Source: a virus. Taken from it: a stretch of DNA of 22,260 nucleotides. Below are positions 1,272-18,280 of the stretch, in pieces. The notes under the pieces are model-generated. The model ran no database searches, had not been told where the DNA came from, and saw only the letters and a list, made by a program, of their open reading frames with translations. Position 1 is the first letter of the stretch. Every line of letters starts with the position of its first letter. The DNA lies in IMG/VR virus record IMGVR_UViG_3300033806_000003, positions 1-22,260 of that record; one strand, given 5' to 3'. The translations under genes and the position numbers were made by a program.

Positions 1272-1700
1272 CTAACCTCCTGTAAAAGCCGCCTTCTCCT
1301 GCATTCTACGCCTTAAAAGACCGGCGACAACTGCCCCATTAACGTGATCCCACAAGTCAAACTGAGTAGCCGCCCCCCAATAGTTTCCAGTGTTCAAGAG
1401 CCGCAGCATGGTTGAACCTTTCAAATCGGCGCAACCGAGATTGAAAACGAAGTCAACCAACGCATCAAACTCGCCTTGGGTGAGTTTCACTTCCACTAAA
1501 TGATTGACGCATGATTCAGCACCCGCAATATCGGCCATCAACTGTGCATCGGCTTGCTGCTGAGTCCAGACATCTCCCTCCTTAATTCCCGGATCCTGAT
1601 GTCCCCAACCAATCGACCATCCTTTCTTGTCCCAATAGGCCGTGAGTCGGCAAGACTCGTAGGACTTGATAATCTCGACCCATGCGGCTGAGATATTCAT
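1272..1700 (-). CDS. Endolysin, GH24 lysozyme (T4 lysozyme-like)
   Basis: This 142-residue muramidase would cut the N-acetylmuramic acid to N-acetylglucosamine bond of peptidoglycan at the end of infection. The signature is clear: a helix with Glu15 (IIKSYESCRLTAYWD), Asp24 eight residues later, then GWSIGWGH. The C-terminal lobe has the usual LTQGEFDALVDFVFNLG and LLRRRMQEKAAF segments. Glu15 and Asp24 match catalytic Glu11 and Asp20 of T4 lysozyme. The usual Thr26 is Ser29 here, and the loop between Asp and Ser is one residue shorter than in T4. No signal peptide or SAR anchor is seen, so export would need a holin. The ATG overlaps the upstream gene's stop (ATGA). Confidence 0.93.
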   Translation of the reverse strand: MNISAAWVEIIKSYESCRLTAYWDKKGWSIGWGHQDPGIKEGDVWTQQQADAQLMADIAGAESCVNHLVEVKLTQGEFDALVDFVFNLGCADLKGSTMLRLLNTGNYWGAATQFDLWDHVNGAVVAGLLRRRMQEKAAFTGG

Positions 1701-4719: not shown

Positions 4720-5574
4720 TCACACAGGATAAAACATCGAAGACCCGATTTGCGTGGTATTCGAGAAGGCGGTATCGCTCAAAGTCGTGAATGCTGCGCC
4801 TGTAGCACTATTGAGAAAGAACATCGTAGATGTCCCAAGCGTGAAAGCCATCATCACTTGACCCGTGTAAGTCAGATTGCTTGAGAACACCGGCCCGCCA
4901 TTGTCTCCTTGCCATCCGGCGCTGCATGGGAATGGCAATCCGCTAATCACCGCCTGCCCGGTCGATGACCCTTTGTTAGTGAGTACGATAAAGTAGGTGA
5001 AAAAAACGAATCGTCCGATCTTGTACGCCGTCCCTGTTTGGGTCGAATATGCAATGCCTGTCGAACCTCCGCCAAATGTCAGTACGGGCGTCCAATTCAG
5101 AATGTTGGATCCCTGGCTCGAATTCATCAGAATGTAGTTTGCTCCGGTATCCTCGATGTCATAGATCCCGCCAGCGATTAACTCTGATCCAGTGAGTGCA
5201 GTCCCATCCGCGTACTTCAACGGGTGGTTTGCAAGCCCATTGGTAGCGATGTTGACTCCGCCGGCAGCATTATTTGCAATGGCGATGAAGCTGAATCTCT
5301 GCCCTGGCTGATAGGAGGTAATTGCCGGTATGGGCGTCAACGTGATCGCGTTGCCCGTGCCACCGACCGCTCCCGGTTGAACAAAAGTCGGAATGCTAAG
5401 GGCGTTCAGGATGTTGCCGGCAGCAGCATTGGCGTTGACCTGCGAAACGATCCAATTGAAGTTGTTCATCACCGGAACGGCATCTATGATCGTGCCGTCA
5501 ACGATGTTGTTCGGTAGCGCCCCAATGATAGCGCCTAGTGTGAAATACTCACGCATTGTTTTGAGTATTCTCAT
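4720..5574 (-). CDS. Tail fibre protein
   Basis: This protein has 284 residues. After MRILKTMREYFTLGAIIGAL it contains the fibre signature NIVDGTIIDAVPVMNNFNWI followed by VSQVNANAA, known from many phage fibre or spike N-termini. Next comes a beta-rich shaft (residues ~70-150, ITLTPIPAITSYQPGQRFSF). The C-terminal head (WTPVLTFGGGSTGIAYSTQT, then GTAYKIGRFVFFTYF) is common in receptor-binding fibres. The start at ATG 5574 is chosen because GGAGG lies five bases upstream; the TTG at 5598 does not have this. It overlaps the 58-residue gene by 26 bases in another frame. It is probably attached to the hub encoded upstream. Its N-terminus matches the short hydrophobic motif found in several other virion proteins here. 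Confidence 0.88.
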   Translation of the reverse strand: MRILKTMREYFTLGAIIGALPNNIVDGTIIDAVPVMNNFNWIVSQVNANAAAGNILNALSIPTFVQPGAVGGTGNAITLTPIPAITSYQPGQRFSFIAIANNAAGGVNIATNGLANHPLKYADGTALTGSELIAGGIYDIEDTGANYILMNSSQGSNILNWTPVLTFGGGSTGIAYSTQTGTAYKIGRFVFFTYFIVLTNKGSSTGQAVISGLPFPCSAGWQGDNGGPVFSSNLTYTGQVMMAFTLGTSTMFFLNSATGAAFTTLSDTAFSNTTQIGSSMFYPV

Positions 5575-11559: not shown

Positions 11560-12050
11560 AGCGATATGCTTCCGATGTTGTTGATTTGAATCGTCGTGGC
11601 CCCGGTCACGGTAAGAATGAACAGCCGTCGTGTATTCGTTCCGATCGTCATCGTGCCAACCAGTGTGGTATTGGAATCACCGATTACTAGTGTTCCAGTC
11701 TGCCCGATATTATCGTTCATAATCGAGATCGGCTCGGCATAGCTGCCATCGATCGGAACCACGCCTCCAGGACCGGCCCCGATCGCTCCTAGAATCGAGG
11801 CGGTAGACGGCAACGTGATATTGAAGCCACCAGATGCACCAGATGTAAGTCGCGTGATTCCATAACCGACCTGAGCCGCCGTCAGATTGATGTTGGTGCC
11901 CGATGTTGCAATGCCGAATCCAGGCGGCAGCGCCTCGGCGTAGTTGTTGACGTTGTTGATGAGCCCGGAAAGACCGAATCCGGCTGACCTATCAGGCACG
12001 ATCCCCGCCGGCTGCGGGAAGATCACACCCAATCGAAGGAATTCGATCAT
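11556..12050 (-). CDS. Small beta-rich structural protein
   Basis: This protein has 164 residues. It begins MIEFLRLGVIFPQPAGIVPD, sharing MIEFLR with the scaffold encoded next. The remainder is beta-rich with Gly, Thr, Ile and Asn (INLTAAQVGYGITRLTSGAS; GTLVIGDSNTTLVGTMTIGT). No enzyme motifs are seen. ATG 12050 has AGGAGG four bases upstream. The sequence pattern (alternating hydrophobic/Thr, Asn) fits a decoration, capsid-associated or fibre-like protein. The family is not recognised. It is co-transcribed with the scaffold and capsid genes. Confidence 0.75.
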   Translation of the reverse strand: MIEFLRLGVIFPQPAGIVPDRSAGFGLSGLINNVNNYAEALPPGFGIATSGTNINLTAAQVGYGITRLTSGASGGFNITLPSTASILGAIGAGPGGVVPIDGSYAEPISIMNDNIGQTGTLVIGDSNTTLVGTMTIGTNTRRLFILTVTGATTIQINNIGSISL

Positions 12051-12059
12051 CTGGCCTCC

Positions 12060-12899
12060 TTACGCCGCTGCCGTTGCTTGATACAGACCAAGAAGCGTGA
12101 CCAGCGGCGAGAAGATGCCCACCGATCCGGTTGGTCCAACGGTGTATCCCGTCTGATACTGTGCGACGGGTACGGTCGTCGTGCCTGGAACAGTGCCAGC
12201 CGTCATCGTCCAAGCGGTCCCCGCGATCGGCGCGACGATGACGAACGATGTCGCGCTCGTCACCTTGACGATGGGATACCAACCCGAGGGCAGCGTGCCC
12301 GTCGTCACGTTCAGGAAAATCACTTGGCCGACTGTCGGCGAAAGCGCATTCGTGCCGAGTGCCAGGGTATAGGCATTGGTCGAACCGACTTGAGTAAGGG
12401 ATGTAAACGTGGTGCCGTTCGTCATTGCCGCACCGGAAGTCGTCGCCAACTGGGTAATCTGCCCTTGATAGGCCCGGATCGAGGTTGCCGAAACACCCGT
12501 TGTCCCCGATAGCGTTATGGCGGTGTCGGAGAGCGTTGGTGTAGCAATACTCCCACCCGCTCCCGTAGTGAGAATTGAGAAGGGAAATGTCTGTCCCAAG
12601 TACGGATTCTGAATCGCGTTGACAACGTTATAGGCGTAGTCCAGCGTCAGCGTGATTGCGCCGGCATTGGTGAAGCGGTTGAAACTCGTTGCCAGAGCCG
12701 TAAGAGTCGCCGATGCCCCCGAGACTACCGCCGGCACGAAAATGCCGTCTGCCTGAGTGTTCGCAGCATTGAGTTGGGTAAAAACGCTTTGGAGAGCGGC
12801 GGCTGGAACCTGATTGCCGTCGATTTCCATCAGCGATGGAAGAAGAGTAAGCGGCGCACCTGATTGCAGGGCGAAATATTGACGCAGCAAAGCTTTCAT
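12060..12899 (-). CDS. Beta-rich structural protein with virion N-terminal motif
   Basis: This protein has 279 residues from ATG 12899, which has GGAGG five bases upstream; an upstream reading from 12956 has no SD. It starts MKALLRQYFALQSGAPLTLL and then has a weak version of the fibre attachment motif (MEIDGNQVPAAALQSVFTQL followed by NAANTQADG). The rest is Thr/Ala/Gly-rich beta sequence (AITLSGTTGVSATSIRAYQG; ALGTNALSPTVGQVIFLNVT), ending VTLLGLYQATAAA. I do not recognise a family. Being first after a candidate promoter and followed by the scaffold and capsid genes, it may be a capsid decoration or minor virion protein. Confidence 0.75.
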   Translation of the reverse strand: MKALLRQYFALQSGAPLTLLPSLMEIDGNQVPAAALQSVFTQLNAANTQADGIFVPAVVSGASATLTALATSFNRFTNAGAITLTLDYAYNVVNAIQNPYLGQTFPFSILTTGAGGSIATPTLSDTAITLSGTTGVSATSIRAYQGQITQLATTSGAAMTNGTTFTSLTQVGSTNAYTLALGTNALSPTVGQVIFLNVTTGTLPSGWYPIVKVTSATSFVIVAPIAGTAWTMTAGTVPGTTTVPVAQYQTGYTVGPTGSVGIFSPLVTLLGLYQATAAA

Positions 12900-12927
12900 G
12901 GTGCCTCCTGGCAGAAGGTTAACGGAA

Positions 12928-12956
12928 TAGTGATACCGTTTACGGGGTCTTGTCAA
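12928..12956 (-). promoter_or_regulatory. Candidate promoter with internal palindrome upstream of the scaffold/capsid unit
   Basis: In the 66-base gap before ATG 12899 there is a consensus -35 TTGACA (12951-12956). The -10 candidates are weak: TCACTA at spacing 17, CACTAT at 18, or TATCAC at 15. The -10 region lies inside an inverted repeat AACGG-N10-CCGTT (12921-12940) that could be an operator or a small hairpin. The unit it would control ends at the strong terminator at 9321-9354. Confidence 0.35.
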
Positions 12957-12965
12957 ATCAGTGTC

Positions 12966-13487
12966 TTAGACGGGCGCCTTCAAGGCTTCCAGACGCTTGT
13001 TGAAGGCGATTTGGGCGTCCGTGAGCTTGGCTTCCCGCTGCGCTAGGCTCGCCTCCTTCACCTGAATTACGCGCTCGCGAGCATCCAAGGCATCGTCGGT
13101 ATCTTTTTCGGCCTTGCGCCGTGCCGATTGATAAGCCTCAAAAATGGCTCGATCACTGGCGAGCCGAGCGGCGCCCTGATCGACTTCTGCCTGTGCCTGC
13201 TTGGCTTGATCCATAGCGGTCGTCGCCTTTGCGGTGAGATCGGCGGCGGTTGTTTTTGCCATCTGAAGTTCACGCGCCGCTGCTTGAGCGTCGGCTTTAG
13301 CCTGCGCAGCAACCCGTTCGGCATCGTCGAGATTCATCTGAATGCCTTGACGCTTAACGAGCTCATCGCGGAGGGCCGTGATTCGTTTGATCTCGTCATT
13401 GAAGGTGCCTTTCAGGATCTCCTGAGTGGCAATAACCATGTTCGGGATGCCGATCACCTCATCGATCGCAAAGCGCCTAGTTTCCAT
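12966..13487 (-). CDS. Long coiled-coil protein of the structural block
   Basis: This 173-residue protein has a short folded start (METRRFAIDEVIGIPNMVIA), followed from about residue 35 to the end by continuous charged coiled coil rich in Ala, Lys, Glu and Gln (AAQAKADAQAAARELQMAKT; AKATTAMDQAKQAQAEVDQG; VIQVKEASLAQREAKL). The ATG at 13487 overlaps the previous stop (TGATG); an in-frame GTG one codon earlier is equally close to the GGAG. No family is recognised. It could be a rod-like internal core protein, an assembly chaperone or a second scaffold; the sequence does not decide. Confidence 0.75.
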   Translation of the reverse strand: METRRFAIDEVIGIPNMVIATQEILKGTFNDEIKRITALRDELVKRQGIQMNLDDAERVAAQAKADAQAAARELQMAKTTAADLTAKATTAMDQAKQAQAEVDQGAARLASDRAIFEAYQSARRKAEKDTDDALDARERVIQVKEASLAQREAKLTDAQIAFNKRLEALKAPV

Positions 13488-14572
13488 CACTTATTCTCCT
13501 CATCCTTGTCCATGCCTGAGATGAACGCTATCCTGGTCTTTATACCCTTCGGGCCAACACTCCACAAGATTGCGGTCACAGCCGGCGGAACGGGCGGAAT
13601 GAACGTCTGAAGCGTCAGAGGCATACTCTGGGAGGTATCGGTAACGTCCTGCCCTCTCAGTACGGCCAAAGGAATCGGGGGCGTGAACGACGGCCGCACC
13701 GAATCCGGGGTCAAAACCTTTGGAATCGATTGTGAAGTGTCGATCGCCTGCCAATTGGATATGGGCAGCAACGAGAAAGTATTTGCCTGGAATGGGGCGG
13801 GAACGCCAATAATGGTGAGTGGCGCACCTCTCGAAGTATCGTAAACATCCCGTGCTCTTAGTTCGACTAGCGGCAACGAGGCAGTGAAGAAGGGCGCAAC
13901 AGCATCAGGCGTCAGAACCTTCGGGATTGATTGTGTGGTGTCCCCCGGTTGCCACTTCGAGACAGGCAACAGAACGAAGGTATTTGCTTGAAATGGCGCT
14001 GGCAGGGATGTCTGAATACTGAGAGGCATCCCCTTTGAAGTGTCATACACATCGCGCGCCCGCAACTCAACCAGCGGTGGCGGTGGCGTAAAGAAAGGCT
14101 GTAACCCGGCATTAGTGCGAATGCCCAGAGGCATCGCATTCGATGTATCTCTACCCTGCCAAATTGAAGTGATAAGCTGGACAAAGGTGTTGGCCTGGAA
14201 CGGTGTCGGAACCGTCCTAAGCGTAGACGGCATACTCCTTGAAGTGTCGACCAGAACATCTTGCGGTCGGGCGATGAGTAATGGGGGATCAATAAACGAC
14301 GGCATGAGCCCCGCATTGGTTCTAATACCAAGTGGCTGTGCATTCGACGTATCAAGTCCATGCCATACCGAACGGATCGGAGGCATGAAAGTGCTGGCAT
14401 TGAATGGCTTCGTTCCTGCGTTAGTTCGTATGCCTATCGGCATACAGCAGGAAGTGTCTCCTAACTGTGTTGGTGGATTTGGAGGAGCCGAAAGAAGGGC
14501 AACAAAGAACGGCGCTGCTGCTGCCGCAACTGGCGCGAACCGTCTTAGCCTAAACGGCTGCGCTCGAAGCAT
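13487..14572 (-). CDS. Nine-repeat 'DTS' protein of unknown function
   Basis: This 361-residue protein consists largely of nine ~34-residue repeats. Each has the core D-T-S (one copy DTT), at residues 39, 74, 109, 142, 177, 211, 245, 278 and 312. Two unit types largely alternate: type A has PFQANTF, a Trp about 8 residues later, then DTS; type B has PxFTPPxPLVELRARDVYDTS. After DTS comes xxxPL or xxIPKVLTP. The N-terminus is basic, then hydrophobic (RRFAPVAAAAAPFFVALLSA), and the C-terminus ends with a lone globular-looking segment (ILWSVGPKGIKTRIAFISGM). The ATG follows the previous TAG directly, with GGAGG nine bases upstream. I know no family; a fibrous or surface-exposed virion protein is a reasonable inference. 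Confidence 0.8.
   Translation of the reverse strand: MLRAQPFRLRRFAPVAAAAAPFFVALLSAPPNPPTQLGDTSCCMPIGIRTNAGTKPFNASTFMPPIRSVWHGLDTSNAQPLGIRTNAGLMPSFIDPPLLIARPQDVLVDTSRSMPSTLRTVPTPFQANTFVQLITSIWQGRDTSNAMPLGIRTNAGLQPFFTPPPPLVELRARDVYDTSKGMPLSIQTSLPAPFQANTFVLLPVSKWQPGDTTQSIPKVLTPDAVAPFFTASLPLVELRARDVYDTSRGAPLTIIGVPAPFQANTFSLLPISNWQAIDTSQSIPKVLTPDSVRPSFTPPIPLAVLRGQDVTDTSQSMPLTLQTFIPPVPPAVTAILWSVGPKGIKTRIAFISGMDKDEENK
13600..14515 (-). repeat. Nine imperfect ~102-bp tandem repeats (34-residue 'DTS' units)
   Basis: DTS positions are spaced 35, 35, 33, 35, 34, 34, 33 and 34 residues apart. Units 5 and 7 share LVELRARDVYDTS, units 6 and 8 share PFQANTF and SIPKVLTPD, and units 1, 2 and 4 share IRTNAG. 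Pairs A+B therefore look duplicated as a ~68-residue double unit. The repeats are diverged at DNA level and stay in frame, so selection acts on the protein. Confidence 0.85.
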
Positions 14573-15307
14573 CTACATCCTCCAGGGATTGATCGCGAAC
14601 GCGAGCGCTTCCGCAGCCGAGAGCGATCTGTTCCACGCAAACGCTGCCACAACTGGGAAATCACAAGCTTGCGATGCGCTTGATTCCATCCCAGACACGC
14701 CCCACTTTTGCGGCATGACCGCATTCCCGGCACTCGCTACATCTGTGCCAACTGTTGCATCTATGCCATCGAAATAGACTTTCGGAACAGCAGATGCAGG
14801 ATAGCGGACACCCATGTAACAATGTGGTTTTCCGTCGCTCACGCTAGGCCCGCTGGAATTATCAGCCTGTTGCAAGAATCCGCTCGAATATTCAATCAGG
14901 GAAAACTCCCCGGCGGCAGCGGTGCCATTAGAGGCAGTGTTTACGAACAACCCCAGAAGGTCTCCGCCGCCGGAAGTGCGCGCGCCTATCAGGGCACTTA
15001 CCTGTCCAACGTTCGTCGGTGCGGCGATCGCGGCCAAGGTATATCCGTTAGCGGGAACAACGGGCGTGTAAGTGCCGTAGTAAATCGCGTTGTTGCTTGC
15101 CTGCGTCATCAGAGAGGCTGGCCCGAATGCCGTTGCCGTTGCGGAATATCCGCTGAATTGATTGGGCGTGAGCCCGGTGACGAGATCGACAGCCCCATCG
15201 CCAGGAAAGCACGCGAACACCAGACCGCGACCGAGGCCGCTGCTAGTGTTTAAGCACCCTACCGTTGGCCGGTACGGCGGTCGGCCGCAAGTAAGGGATA
15301 TGCCCAC
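14573..15307 (-). CDS. LamG/concanavalin-like jelly-roll protein
   Basis: This 244-residue protein starts at GTG 15307, one base after the previous stop. The fold suggested is a lectin-like beta sandwich: LGRGLVFACFPGDGAVDLVT near the start, central strands (GYTLAAIAAPTNVGQVSALI; DGKPHCYMGVRYPASAVPKV), YFDG, and the diagnostic C-terminal segment AFAWNRSLSAAEALAFAINP. That last pattern (x-W-x-R-x-L-S-x-x-E followed by a short helix and NPW) is typical of LamG_3-like domains in phage surface proteins, which bind sugars or act as capsid decorations. The ligand is unknown. It lies among other beta-rich genes between portal and scaffold. Confidence 0.8.
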   Translation of the reverse strand: MGISLTCGRPPYRPTVGCLNTSSGLGRGLVFACFPGDGAVDLVTGLTPNQFSGYSATATAFGPASLMTQASNNAIYYGTYTPVVPANGYTLAAIAAPTNVGQVSALIGARTSGGGDLLGLFVNTASNGTAAAGEFSLIEYSSGFLQQADNSSGPSVSDGKPHCYMGVRYPASAVPKVYFDGIDATVGTDVASAGNAVMPQKWGVSGMESSASQACDFPVVAAFAWNRSLSAAEALAFAINPWRM

Positions 15308-15308
15308 T

Positions 15309-15824
15309 TTAAGTGTACTGCCCTTCTACTGGCACATAATAAAGCGCGTGGCTGGCCTCTGTAGAGTCGAGATTTACGCCTGTATTGTGCACAACCCACA
15401 GACCGAACTGTGCCGGAACTGAGCCGAAGAGTGACCGTAGGGATACGCCAGCGAAATAATAGGTTACGCCGGTCGTGCCGGTATCCAGCACCATCGTTGC
15501 GACGTTGCGCATCTCCATGGGCTTTTGATTAGCTGTCTGAGCACTACGCAATGCGCTGGTAGTGCCGAAGGCGTCTACCATCGTGCTCGACGTGTCGACG
15601 GAACAGAACGCCCAGACTTCTATTTGCTTGCCGCTAGTGGGCGACGTGCCGACCTTGATCTTGCCACCAAGGACATAATCATCATACGGAGCGCTGCCGC
15701 CAGTGGTATTGTCTATCGTTGCGGTTTGCCACCCGGCGAGGAGATTAGTGTCTGATGCCAGCGACGCTAAAGCCTTCGTGAATGTTCCAGCCGTTCCGTA
15801 CTTAGTGAAGAGATTACCAGCCAC
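15309..15824 (-). CDS. Beta-sandwich structural protein, common phage type of unknown role
   Basis: This 171-residue protein starts at GTG 15824, overlapping the previous TAG by one base. It begins NLFTKYGTAGTFTKALASLA, has strands around DDYVLGGKIKVGTSPTSGKQ and IEVWAFCSVD, and ends FGLWVVHNTGVNLDSTEASH followed by ALYYVPVEGQYT. This architecture recurs in many tailed-phage structural modules without a known function. A decoration or minor tail/head protein is likely. No SD precedes it, so translation depends on coupling to the upstream gene. Confidence 0.8.
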   Translation of the reverse strand: MAGNLFTKYGTAGTFTKALASLASDTNLLAGWQTATIDNTTGGSAPYDDYVLGGKIKVGTSPTSGKQIEVWAFCSVDTSSTMVDAFGTTSALRSAQTANQKPMEMRNVATMVLDTGTTGVTYYFAGVSLRSLFGSVPAQFGLWVVHNTGVNLDSTEASHALYYVPVEGQYT

Positions 15825-16306
15825 TAAGCGCTCCTGGCTTTGTTAACATCCGTATCCTGCGGGATGAATCCGAAATATGGCGCGGGGCAGACATTCGCGG
15901 TCGTGAAATAGCTTTCAAAGACAGATGCCACTCTTTGCGCTGCCGCAGTCAGCGCCGTAACAGTATTCACTGGGAAGATTGATGAAAACCCATTCCTGAT
16001 GTTTATCTGAGTAGCATCCACGAATCCAGGAGCAACCATCGCTGAATAAGCATCGCGGGCTGCTTGAGACAACTGCTGGAATCCTCCATTGCCTCCTGAG
16101 ATTGGCGTTGTTCCCCAATCAATAGCAGTATTGATGATCGTAACATCCACTCTTTGTAGCCAGATCATCACTTGCGTAGTAGCAGGAGTGCTCGCGCCAG
16201 TCAGCGACTGCAAATAGATGGCCGCTACTTGGTCGCTCATCGCCAACGGATTATTGGGATCGGCCTGCATTTTTAGATGCAGTTGATGATAGTCAATGGT
16301 AGCCAT
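15824..16306 (-). CDS. Unknown structural-block protein
   Basis: This 160-residue protein starts at ATG 16306, which overlaps the 29-residue peptide's stop as TGATG. It starts MATIDYHQLHLKMQADPNNP and looks helical in the first half (SDQVAAIYLQSL; TTQVMIWLQRVDVTIINTAI). A second helical part is TALTAAAQRVASVFESYFTT. The C-terminus carries a short Pro/Phe-rich tail (CPAPYFGFIPQDTDV). I do not recognise the family. Its co-translation with the short helical peptide before it suggests the two proteins may act together. Confidence 0.7.
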   Translation of the reverse strand: MATIDYHQLHLKMQADPNNPLAMSDQVAAIYLQSLTGASTPATTQVMIWLQRVDVTIINTAIDWGTTPISGGNGGFQQLSQAARDAYSAMVAPGFVDATQINIRNGFSSIFPVNTVTALTAAAQRVASVFESYFTTANVCPAPYFGFIPQDTDVNKARSA

Positions 16307-16395
16307 CAATAGACCTTCAAGTGGTCGAGCAGCGCCTTGATCTGCTGCAATAGCTCAAGAATTTGCCGAAGCAGATCATCCGTGTGCTCTGGCAT
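16306..16395 (-). CDS. 29-residue helical leucine-rich peptide
   Basis: ATG 16395 opens a 29-residue frame: MPEHTDDLLRQILELLQQIK followed by ALLDHLKVY. It has GAAGGG eight bases upstream, begins one base after the preceding stop, and its stop overlaps the next start as TGATG. From residue 8 on, Leu and Ile fall on a heptad (LL, IL, LL, IK, LL, L), an amphipathic coiled-coil helix. It is too short for default gene calling. A translational-coupling leader is the other explanation; the ordered heptad and SD favour a real peptide. Confidence 0.6.
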   Translation of the reverse strand: MPEHTDDLLRQILELLQQIKALLDHLKVY

Positions 16396-16396
16396 C

Positions 16397-16891
16397 TTAT
16401 TGCCCTTCGAATAAGATATGCCCTGAAACCAGCCCCGTACCATTCTTCGCCGACAGGCACAGTTCCGCGTTTGGCTGTGTGGTGCCCATGCAAGTGATCT
16501 CCTCACCGATGCGGGCTTGCCAGCGAGCGATGCAGCCGAAGGCATTGAATTCAAGCTCCAGCATGTAGGCGGTTGCGCTACGCTGCGGGAAGGTTGTTGC
16601 TGCCGTCGATCCCCACACCGGAGCCGTGGTTGGGGCAGAAGCGTTGACATCCTTCAGCGAGAGGTTGCCGACCGACAAGCCGCCCACCGAAAGTGTAGAC
16701 GTGCGGGCCAAGATCAGTTCCGTGGGATTGCTGGAAGCCGATGCCCCGCCTGCGTAGACTTCATTCACCTTATTCAGTTGGTTGGCGCCCCCAGAGCGCA
16801 GGAATCCCGCAGCCTGACCTGCGACAAAAGACGTTGTATCGTTTACGGGTGCTAGAGTGACGCGACTATACGTTGCTGTATATGCGGCCAT
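16397..16891 (-). CDS. Structural protein of unknown family
   Basis: This 164-residue protein starts MAAYTATYSRVTLAPVNDTT. It is Ala/Ser/Thr-rich with alternating beta-type pattern (TELILARTSTLSVGGLSVGN; LSLKDVNAS), then a longer polar segment and a C-terminal beta part (AYMLELEFNAFGCIARWQAR; IGEEITCMGTTQ; GLVSGHILFEGQ). ATG 16891 directly follows the previous stop (TAAATG) and has AAGGAG seven bases upstream. I do not recognise it. Composition and location suggest a minor head or decoration protein. Confidence 0.75.
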   Translation of the reverse strand: MAAYTATYSRVTLAPVNDTTSFVAGQAAGFLRSGGANQLNKVNEVYAGGASASSNPTELILARTSTLSVGGLSVGNLSLKDVNASAPTTAPVWGSTAATTFPQRSATAYMLELEFNAFGCIARWQARIGEEITCMGTTQPNAELCLSAKNGTGLVSGHILFEGQ

Positions 16892-17236
16892 TTAAATCTC
16901 CTTTGACGGCAGAATGAGTTGCGGGGATTGAAGCTGCCGTGCCTCCGTTTCCGCTGCTTCTTCAAGACGCTGGTTCCAGGTAATGCAACGAGGCCGACCA
17001 GCAGCCTCGTGAATGGCAGCGCAGTTGTCGCAAATGTGGTGTTGACAGCTTTTGCAGAAGTAACGCGCCCGCGAACGCTTTGAGTTTTTCCACACGACAT
17101 ATTGGCAATGCGAACAGGTGTAGGTGTCGGCCTCCAGGTGCATCGTCCCGGTGCCCTTGACATTCTCTCCCAACCCTCGCTGGTCGATTTCCAGGTAGCC
17201 GAGATTGCGAGGGAATCCATCCGTTATGATAAGCAT
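16892..17236 (-). CDS. Cys-rich putative zinc-binding phage protein
   Basis: This 114-residue protein has the start MLIITDGFPRNLGYLEIDQR, then a beta segment (GTGTMHLEADTYTC). A zinc-ribbon-like cluster follows: C41-x2-C44, C61-x2-C64, C69-x2-C72, plus His66, His67, His76 and C84. CSHC and CKSCQHHICDNC can hold one or two zinc ions in a treble-clef or RING-like way. The tail (RLEEAAETEARQLQSP) is helical. ATG 17236 has GAGGGG seven bases upstream, 12 bases after the preceding gene. Such proteins occur in phage structural clusters but I know no function for this type; nucleic-acid or protein contact is inferred. Confidence 0.8.
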   Translation of the reverse strand: MLIITDGFPRNLGYLEIDQRGLGENVKGTGTMHLEADTYTCSHCQYVVWKNSKRSRARYFCKSCQHHICDNCAAIHEAAGRPRCITWNQRLEEAAETEARQLQSPQLILPSKEI

Positions 17237-17248
17237 GGGATCCCCTCA

Positions 17249-17608
17249 TCAGGCATAGAAACTAATGTTGAGAATCGGCGTCCCCGTGGCAAGGATGAAC
17301 TGGATCTTGTTCAAGTCGCCGGAATAGTCCAATTCGCCGCCAGTCGAAAGAATCATCCCAATCGTTGACGTAGGCGCTGTACCGTCATCGCGCCAACGCA
17401 CGCTAGAAGTCGTTCCTTCGCACTGAATGATCGCGTAGCCAGGAACTAAGCCCAGGTTAGCGATCGGTGTCGGCAGTGTCAGGTTAGTGGCACTACCCAA
17501 TGTCCCGCTGGTGATCTGCTGATAGCCCAACGGCCGGCGATAGGCGCTGACCGTGCCCTCGCTAGGAGTCACGGCGAGTTGGAACAACTTACGCAGCCAC
17601 GCGACCAT
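17249..17608 (-). CDS. Small beta-rich structural protein with virion N-terminal motif
   Basis: This 119-residue protein starts at ATG 17608, chosen because AGGAGAGG lies just upstream; the reading from 17644 adds nothing. It overlaps the peptidase gene's end by 20 bases. It starts MVAWLRKLFQLAVTPSEG, then has a compact beta domain: NLGLVPGYAIIQCEGTTSSV, then RWRDDGTAPTSTIGMILSTG, and GELDYSGDLNKIQF ending TPILNISFYA. The RWRDDGT-APT-x-GM...GGE...GDL-x-x-x-F pattern recurs in phage structural clusters. The function is unknown; a head decoration or connector-proximal role is possible. Confidence 0.8.
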   Translation of the reverse strand: MVAWLRKLFQLAVTPSEGTVSAYRRPLGYQQITSGTLGSATNLTLPTPIANLGLVPGYAIIQCEGTTSSVRWRDDGTAPTSTIGMILSTGGELDYSGDLNKIQFILATGTPILNISFYA

Positions 17609-18065
17609 TGGCCTCTCCTTCAAGGTAGAGCCGTAGTGCGGCAATCCGCAGTTGAGGATCAGGATAATACCTCGTTGGCGGTTTTCCGCAACGCATCAGG
17701 AAAATCGCCATTCCCTGTCCGAATCCTTGGCTCGCCGCAAACTCATCGGCAGCATATTCTTGTCTCTGGCACATGAACCTTACCGCCTCTGTCCAACACA
17801 GCGGTACGCACAGTGCCCGAATCTCCATGTGCCACGCTTTGATGTGCTTTAACTCATGCAGCAAGACCGCCTGCTGTTCGCTCCATGAGAGATCGAAGAA
17901 CCTAGCACCAACGGCAATATGCTTGAACGGCCAAAACCCGCGAGCCTCGGCAATGACGTTCCATAGCATATCTGCCTTGACCGGAATGCCGCGAAAGCGG
18001 AAGCCGACTGGCAATCGGTCCAACGCTGCCGGCCCGATCGGCTTCCAAGTGATTCCGCGCTTCAT
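17589..18065 (-). CDS. M48-like zinc metallopeptidase encoded among structural genes
   Basis: This 158-residue protein has a complete gluzincin active site: H70-E71-L-K-H74 in AVLLHELKHIKAWH (two zinc His plus the catalytic Glu), and E103 in RQEYAADEFAAS, the third ligand of M48-type enzymes (E-x-x-x-D). The N-terminal ~60 residues are beta-rich and the segment between the motifs is hydrophobic (EIRALCVPLCWTEAV). There is no signal peptide; the length is close to a minimal M48/BlaR-like domain. The ATG overlaps the previous stop (ATGA). Peptidoglycan-unrelated proteolysis is expected; substrates could be virion proteins during maturation or a host protein. The fold is well supported, the target is inference. 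Confidence 0.85.
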   Translation of the reverse strand: MKRGITWKPIGPAALDRLPVGFRFRGIPVKADMLWNVIAEARGFWPFKHIAVGARFFDLSWSEQQAVLLHELKHIKAWHMEIRALCVPLCWTEAVRFMCQRQEYAADEFAASQGFGQGMAIFLMRCGKPPTRYYPDPQLRIAALRLYLEGEANGRVAA

Positions 18066-18280
18066 AGTTTCTTACCCTCCAGCCGAGCGATGCGCTCCAG
18101 CGATGCCTTTTGCTTTTCCGCCTCAGACTTCGCCGCCCTGAAGCGCCCCGTGTCATCCAGGATCTCTCGCGCACGCTGAAGCGACTGTAAATCATCGCGA
18201 GCTCGCCATGACTTATCGATCCCGTCTACCGCGATAGGGGCATTGCTACCGTCCTGCTTACGTTTGCGTTTCTTAGCCAC
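18062..18280 (-). CDS. Small basic helical protein between portal and peptidase
   Basis: This 72-residue protein starts at GTG 18280, which overlaps the portal stop by eight bases and has GGGGGTG upstream. The start of the longer frame (18349) runs inside the portal gene and is unlikely. The N-terminus is very basic (VAKKRKRKQDG). The rest is one long helix with coiled-coil spacing (LQSLQRAREILDDTGRFRAA; KSEAEKQKASLERIARLEGK). No family is recognised. A DNA-contacting or portal-associated role would suit the sequence and the overlap, but this is inference. Confidence 0.7.
   Translation of the reverse strand: MAKKRKRKQDGSNAPIAVDGIDKSWRARDDLQSLQRAREILDDTGRFRAAKSEAEKQKASLERIARLEGKKL

Follow-up and report, generated by a model that had tools for sequence, protein, structure and literature searches.

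P0001, a 361-residue protein of nine repeat units, is encoded among head morphogenesis genes, between the portal and scaffold ORFs, and belongs to a slot in which most of its relatives carry other kinds of repeat and most keep the same C-terminal cap. Comparison of the slot proteins indicates that repeats and cap recombine independently, in a module exchange whose boundary lies between repeat body and cap. We tentatively propose, at just under an even chance, that P0001 belongs to an accessory arm of the virion, in which its repeats serve as an exchangeable spacer.

Gene context and repeat architecture of P0001

The window, the whole stretch of DNA analyzed here, is an entire linear IMG/VR record of 22,260 bases and is probably a fragment. 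Its minus-strand genes run from the terminase end through the portal, an M48-like gene, several small genes, a LamG-like ORF, and the repeat protein to a coiled-coil ("coil") gene, two further proteins, a scaffold-like gene, the capsid, tail and fiber-like genes, and an endolysin (Table 1). The name "scaffold-like" was given from gene position and from an acidic, coiled make-up. The endolysin (1272-1700, minus strand) resembles the model of the gene transfer agent endolysin BgtA at 94 bits, below the cut-off of 315.

Table 1. Positions in the window of P0001, its parts, and the features around it
Feature	Position	Strand	Basis
Variable interval, portal ORF to scaffold ORF, 6.7 kb	11560..18272	minus	comparison with 61 relatives
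LamG-like ORF, in frame with the repeat gene, one TAG codon between	14573..15307	minus	alignment to L021
GGAGG, ribosome-binding site for the repeat gene, within the final codons of the upstream ORF (LamG-like)	14579..14583	minus	sequence
P0001, nine-unit repeat protein of 361 aa	13487..14572 (stop included)	minus	ORF list
N-terminal 20 residues, continuing a LamG-type ending (NPW...RLRRF)	14513..14572	minus	comparison with fused relative L021
Unit 1, odd type	14408..14512	minus	unit alignment anchored on P-F/S
Unit 2, even type	14303..14407	minus	unit alignment anchored on P-F/S
Unit 3, odd type	14204..14302	minus	unit alignment anchored on P-F/S
Unit 4, even type	14099..14203	minus	unit alignment anchored on P-F/S
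Unit 5, odd type	13997..14098	minus	unit alignment anchored on P-F/S
Unit 6, even type	13895..13996	minus	unit alignment anchored on P-F/S
Unit 7, odd type	13796..13894	minus	unit alignment anchored on P-F/S
Unit 8, even type	13694..13795	minus	unit alignment anchored on P-F/S
Unit 9, odd type, proline-rich linker at its end	13586..13693	minus	unit alignment anchored on P-F/S
C-terminal cap, 31 residues, common to slot proteins with other repeats	13490..13582	minus	cap profile and pairwise comparison
Coil protein gene accompanying the slot	12966..13490	minus	coil searches in relatives

Each unit of P0001 begins with P[FS], followed 18 residues further on by DT[ST] and then by P..[LI], with a period of 33 to 35 residues and the consensus PF(F/Q)...DT(S/T)..P..L. 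The units start at residues 21, 56, 91, 124, 159, 193, 227, 260, and 294, and their cores lie at residues 39, 74, 109, 142, 177, 211, 245, 278, and 312, giving spacings of 35, 35, 33, 35, 34, 34, 33, and 34. A sequence-only reading of this DNA, which had not given the strand of the feature (minus), had described nine DTS cores at 33- to 35-residue spacing and two alternating unit types. Both descriptions hold, with eight cores reading DTS and one DTT. Odd units are of the PFF/PSF...LVELRARDV type and even units of the PFQANTF...S.WQ type, the alternation being clearest in units 3 to 9. Self-similarity (BLOSUM62) was maximal at a lag of 68 residues, at 0.30 per position, far above the best of 1,000 shuffles at any lag (-0.21). 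The "hydrophobic N-terminal stretch" of the same reading proved instead to comprise 20 residues that carry on the ending of the LamG-like frame lying upstream, and then unit 1, and a signal peptide or membrane segment at this position was dropped.

Synonymous sites between units approach saturation and protein changes are few, which marks the repeat copies as old duplications that selection on the protein has maintained: among the 19 of 36 unit pairs with more than 45% amino acid identity, pS was 0.59 to 0.96 and pN 0.15 to 0.43. The near-saturated synonymous sites rule out a recent slippage array as the origin of the repeats. Since the DNA of the units is merely 47 to 70% identical (the same 19 pairs), slippage-driven change in copy number is not expected. 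Strain-to-strain variation in copy number, suggested as a possibility from the sequence, was not observed; between relatives, it is the kind of repeat that varies.

The repeats matched no known family, as had been stated from the sequence, and the reading frame is intact. Searches of Pfam, PHROGs, NCBIfam, and PDB sequences returned nothing above threshold, and tblastn against 50,697 phage records gave no match up to E 1. The only Pfam match, DUF6996 (E 0.034), did not reach the cut-off, and neither the helical 34-residue repeats of the TPR/PPR type nor the other Pfam repeat families gave a profile match. With 13.9% proline, 4.7% glycine, a period of 33 to 35, and no glycine at every third residue, P0001 lacks the collagen pattern. 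Viral-contig searches with P0001 and with a double-unit alignment yielded 6 and 32 pattern stretches, respectively, and no relatives. A repeat profile run on 398 Burkholderiaceae genomes gave two matches (E 0.0046 and 0.0076) that were judged to be chance; one contained five stops, and neither had this phage nearby. AlphaFold2 modeled two double units of P0001 at a pLDDT of 31. This low value is uninformative about disorder, because a similarly shallow run on the LamG-like ORF scored as low (pLDDT 30).

Exchange of repeat bodies and retention of the cap

Related loci were collected by a capsid-gene search, from which the best 80 of 185 related IMG/VR stretches were taken together with four bacterial loci (three from Paraburkholderia genomes, the fourth from a beta-proteobacterial MAG); extra viral loci were obtained via the gene at 12063-12956. 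In a sample of 398 Burkholderiaceae genomes, a close capsid relative was present in 6 and a weak partial one in 3 more. P0001 matched only three ORFs among the relatives' loci, those of L002, L015, and, weakly, L018. No match was found in genome contigs with a profile of the gene at 12063-12956, nor by tblastn against phages with L015, L003, L021, the gene at 12063-12956, the LamG-like ORF, or the portal, and viral-contig scans with the coil alignment, L015, L003, and four caps added no contig to the known set. A coil profile run on 399 Burkholderiales genomes gave two matches near 22.7 bits, judged to be generic coiled coil. One 79-kb contig (IMGVR_UViG_3300037852_000046; loci L070 and L074) holds two capsid gene copies about 40 kb apart; these may belong to a tandem pair of related prophages, or the assembly may be duplicated.

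Apart from the window, nine contigs carry the coil gene; three of them have an identical slot protein (L003), leaving seven distinct relatives with capsids 80 to 92% identical and Burkholderiales hosts. In the window and these seven, the ORF directly upstream of the coil gene encodes a repeat protein in seven of eight cases, with repeats of the DTS, WPKDEA/MPQT, GFQ, acidic, or KTGxVASL type. The distinct C-terminal cap noted from the sequence was confirmed as a segment of about 31 residues, which seven of these eight proteins retain. It occurs in eight of the nine coil contigs and, at E < 0.2, in no coil-less contig. A cap profile seeded with the window, L002, L018, and L003 and run on 8,556 ORFs recovered L012 (E 3.9e-7), L021 (E 7.3e-7), and L010 (E 2.6e-5), in each case at the C terminus of the ORF preceding the coil gene.

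Cap, body, and coil each pair with different relatives in the pairwise table of the eight proteins, and body similarity was detected in only 2 of 28 pairs, against capsids that are 80 to 92% identical. The match between P0001 and L002 is confined to the last 31 residues (77% identity), the body of L002 being another repeat, WPKDEA...MPQT...FRRVSDD. Conservation of the last cap residues between these two may be due in part to the overlapping ribosome-binding site of the coil gene. L002 and L003 have bodies 51 to 52% identical and caps that differ (29%), and L015 and L018 have coils 73% identical and unlike bodies. GFQ repeats precede the cap in L018 and acidic repeats in L010, and L021 joins a LamG domain, KTGxVASL repeats, and cap in a single ORF. 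The distant relative L015 carries DTS/DES units homologous to those of the window (34% over 125 aa, E 6e-9 in a single comparison), with six cores of the window type in longer units. Neither repeat nor cap is indispensable, because the nonrepetitive slot protein of L012, with one NPISTLPIS motif, is almost without repeat and that of L015 is without a recognizable cap. GFQ, VKTxNGL, PGGxFVNE, and a "DWPNP" repeat are motifs known from other phages; the first three were confined to slot genes among the loci examined, and no true instance of the "DWPNP" repeat was found in the loci searched.

These comparisons bear on whether P0001 might be a cord or ruler of the capsid lattice, in which repeat pairs contact repeating lattice sites and the chain staples or measures the shell. 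Strict alternation of two unit types with little change in length, the high proline content (13.9%), and strong selection on the protein would all suit such a role. Fixed lattice contacts fit poorly, however, with capsids that are 80 to 92% identical yet accompanied by unrelated repeats of other lengths, and the slot is missing from most relatives; we regard the lattice role as very improbable.

The interval between portal and scaffold genes

The portal, M48-like, and scaffold genes were present in all 61 loci compared, defined as those with both portal and scaffold genes; near-identical contigs were not thinned, and L002 and L015, whose contigs are cut, were left out. The portal-scaffold distance ranged from 1.2 to 7.7 kb in these relatives and is 6.7 kb in the window. 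The genes of the window's interval recurred in 0 to 2 of the 61 loci, except g17249 (15 loci), g12060 (28 loci), and g11556 (28 loci). The P0001 repeats and the LamG-like ORF were found in none of the 61 and the coil, by single-sequence search, in two; the repeats, missing from all 61 relatives with a complete interval, are thus optional in the lineage. An internal-repeat test of 252 ORFs in or before the interval, filtered on third-position GC and including some that are out of frame, ranked slot and collagen-like proteins highest, followed by glycine-rich and fiber-like ones. In the distant record MW202637, only two small genes lie between the portal and capsid genes. Taken together, the gene comparisons identify the interval as an accessory region rich in fiber-type repeats.

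This setting is shared by two other accounts of P0001. It could be a component of a tail or neck fiber, acting by the same arm mechanism from the portal vertex or tail: the interval comes after the portal gene, relatives' intervals hold fiber-type repeats, and a C-terminal motif of L015 is weakly, and not significantly, like annotated tail fibers (E 2 to 4). A separate fiber-like gene set follows the tail genes (window 5598-1904), and we consider the tail or neck location doubtful. Alternatively, P0001 and the coil protein could be packed inside the procapsid, aid assembly, and leave or be ejected, as the slot genes sit immediately before the scaffold-like gene and a long helical partner would be typical of internal proteins. 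Against an internal protein, the slot is optional and changes its sequence type freely, its interval neighbors resemble fibers and lectin domains, and P0001 lacks the N-terminal motif common to the capsid, scaffold-like, and several neighboring proteins. An internal role is therefore unlikely.

The motif in question, M..LLR.FL.LGV (or LLLPGV), is common to proteins that are otherwise unrelated, with starts in the window at 17608, 12899, 12050, 11559, 10797, and 5574 (all minus strand), and also occurs in L015, L017, L021, L127, and L128. In 45 of 270 genes, the pattern, which was drawn up from these sequences, fell within the N-terminal 30 residues, compared with 6 of 5,400 random internal 30-mers. 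Like the capsid targeting sequence of T4, the motif may direct proteins to the head, or it may mark them for processing. The proteins starting at 5574, 2851, and 12899 (all minus strand) have a further N-terminal module in common after the start, DG...(D/P)A..VM/VF..xN..(V/L)N, as if several fiber-like proteins used one attachment end.

The LamG-like ORF ends in NPWRM-stop, and its single TAG is followed in the same frame by the ATG of the repeat gene (window 14570-14584, minus strand). The counterpart in L021 is unbroken and reads LamG ... NPWQVW ... repeats ... cap, its LamG domain scoring 28.7 bits with Pfam Laminin_G_3 (PF13385), for which the cut-off is 27.6. Aligned to this domain, the window ORF scored 83, compared with a maximum of 70 in 500 shuffles. 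Pfam called no LamG domain in the window ORF and no Laminin_G_3 domain in P0001 itself; the designation "LamG-like" reflects alignment to one relative, L021. The gene two places upstream is also common to the window and L021 (E 5e-10), and the gene in between has marginal similarity to L021, its score being reached by 15 of 500 shuffles. The two ORFs may be a split gene with translational coupling or may be joined by stop codon readthrough; the repeat gene's own ribosome-binding site weighs against a need for readthrough.

Proposed function and comparison with known systems

In the proposed virion arm, the nine repeats would form an elongated, proline-rich spacer, and the cap would be the end that docks or binds a partner, which might be the coil protein encoded alongside. 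The LamG-like protein, made directly before P0001, would provide an outward, probably glycan-binding head. Exchange of the repeat segment as a module, with its neighbors kept, would reflect selection on spacer length and surface and on no single sequence. The scarcity of body similarity, the recovery of caps outside the profile seeds, the L021 fusion, and the optional interval with its fiber-type repeats speak for the arm; the separation of LamG-like head and repeat protein into two ORFs in the window speaks against it, the link from head to spacer being suggested by the one fused relative. We infer virion presence, orientation, glycan binding, elongated shape, and contact between cap and coil, and attachment to the virion is read from gene position and from likeness to SPP1 gp12 and phi29 gp8.5. 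The sequence-only reading's "virion protein" gains from the location between portal and scaffold genes and the fiber- and collagen-like company, and stands as a plausible assignment, not a demonstrated one; the fibrous or solenoid form given in that reading is conjectural. P0001 could also be a nonstructural protein, for example one that binds a host factor multivalently, and lie in the late operon by chance. Its location among the head genes, together with the fusion to LamG seen in L021, makes this distinctly improbable.

If the arm reading is true, architecture rather than repeat sequence would be conserved in such arms. A broader and rather doubtful version is a general interchangeable cartridge, in which cap and coil partner are kept and sequence-unrelated repeat families are swapped as equivalent spacers, selection tuning only their length and surface chemistry; many orphan short-repeat phage proteins, which are hard to annotate, may then belong to one catalogue. 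The slot amounts to a natural experiment: five or more unrelated types of repeat occur alongside nearly identical capsids and a cap and partner that are retained, so that the role of the repeat is open to testing by segment deletion or exchange.

Among known systems, SPP1 gp12 is described as a nonessential collagen-like capsid accessory spike of 64 aa whose gene adjoins the scaffold gene in the head cluster (PMC6316719, PMC7602432). P0001 is likewise a repeat protein encoded with the head genes, and relatives have collagen-like proteins in this interval. Unlike gp12, P0001 is without the collagen pattern (4.7% glycine) and is far longer (361 versus 64 aa), and its capsid binding is putative. 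The phi29 head fiber gp8.5 and T4 Hoc are presented as optional arms thought to aid attachment, each having one end that binds the capsid and a part that points outward, and with known folds, a beta-tulip with coiled coil and an Ig-like fold, respectively (PMC7602432). The arm proposed for P0001 would share that optional, two-ended plan; in contrast to these two proteins, P0001 belongs to no recognized family, and the coil gene beside it is a separate one.

LamG/concanavalin-like phage proteins (PF13385) resemble the present case in that L021 fuses such a domain to repeats and cap and the ORF upstream of P0001 is LamG-like, and they differ in that P0001 itself lacks the domain and the two are separate ORFs in the window. 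In mosaic tail spikes and fibers, receptor-binding modules are swapped around conserved attachment parts. The slot similarly exchanges modules around conserved parts, but here the repeat body itself gives way to unrelated repeat families and the conserved cap is C-terminal. No description of such a slot was found in the titles and abstract openings of the literature on phage repeat, LamG, head-fiber, and decoration proteins. Exchange of fiber modules is already well known; what distinguishes this slot is the replacement of one repeat family by an unrelated one with the C-terminal cap kept.
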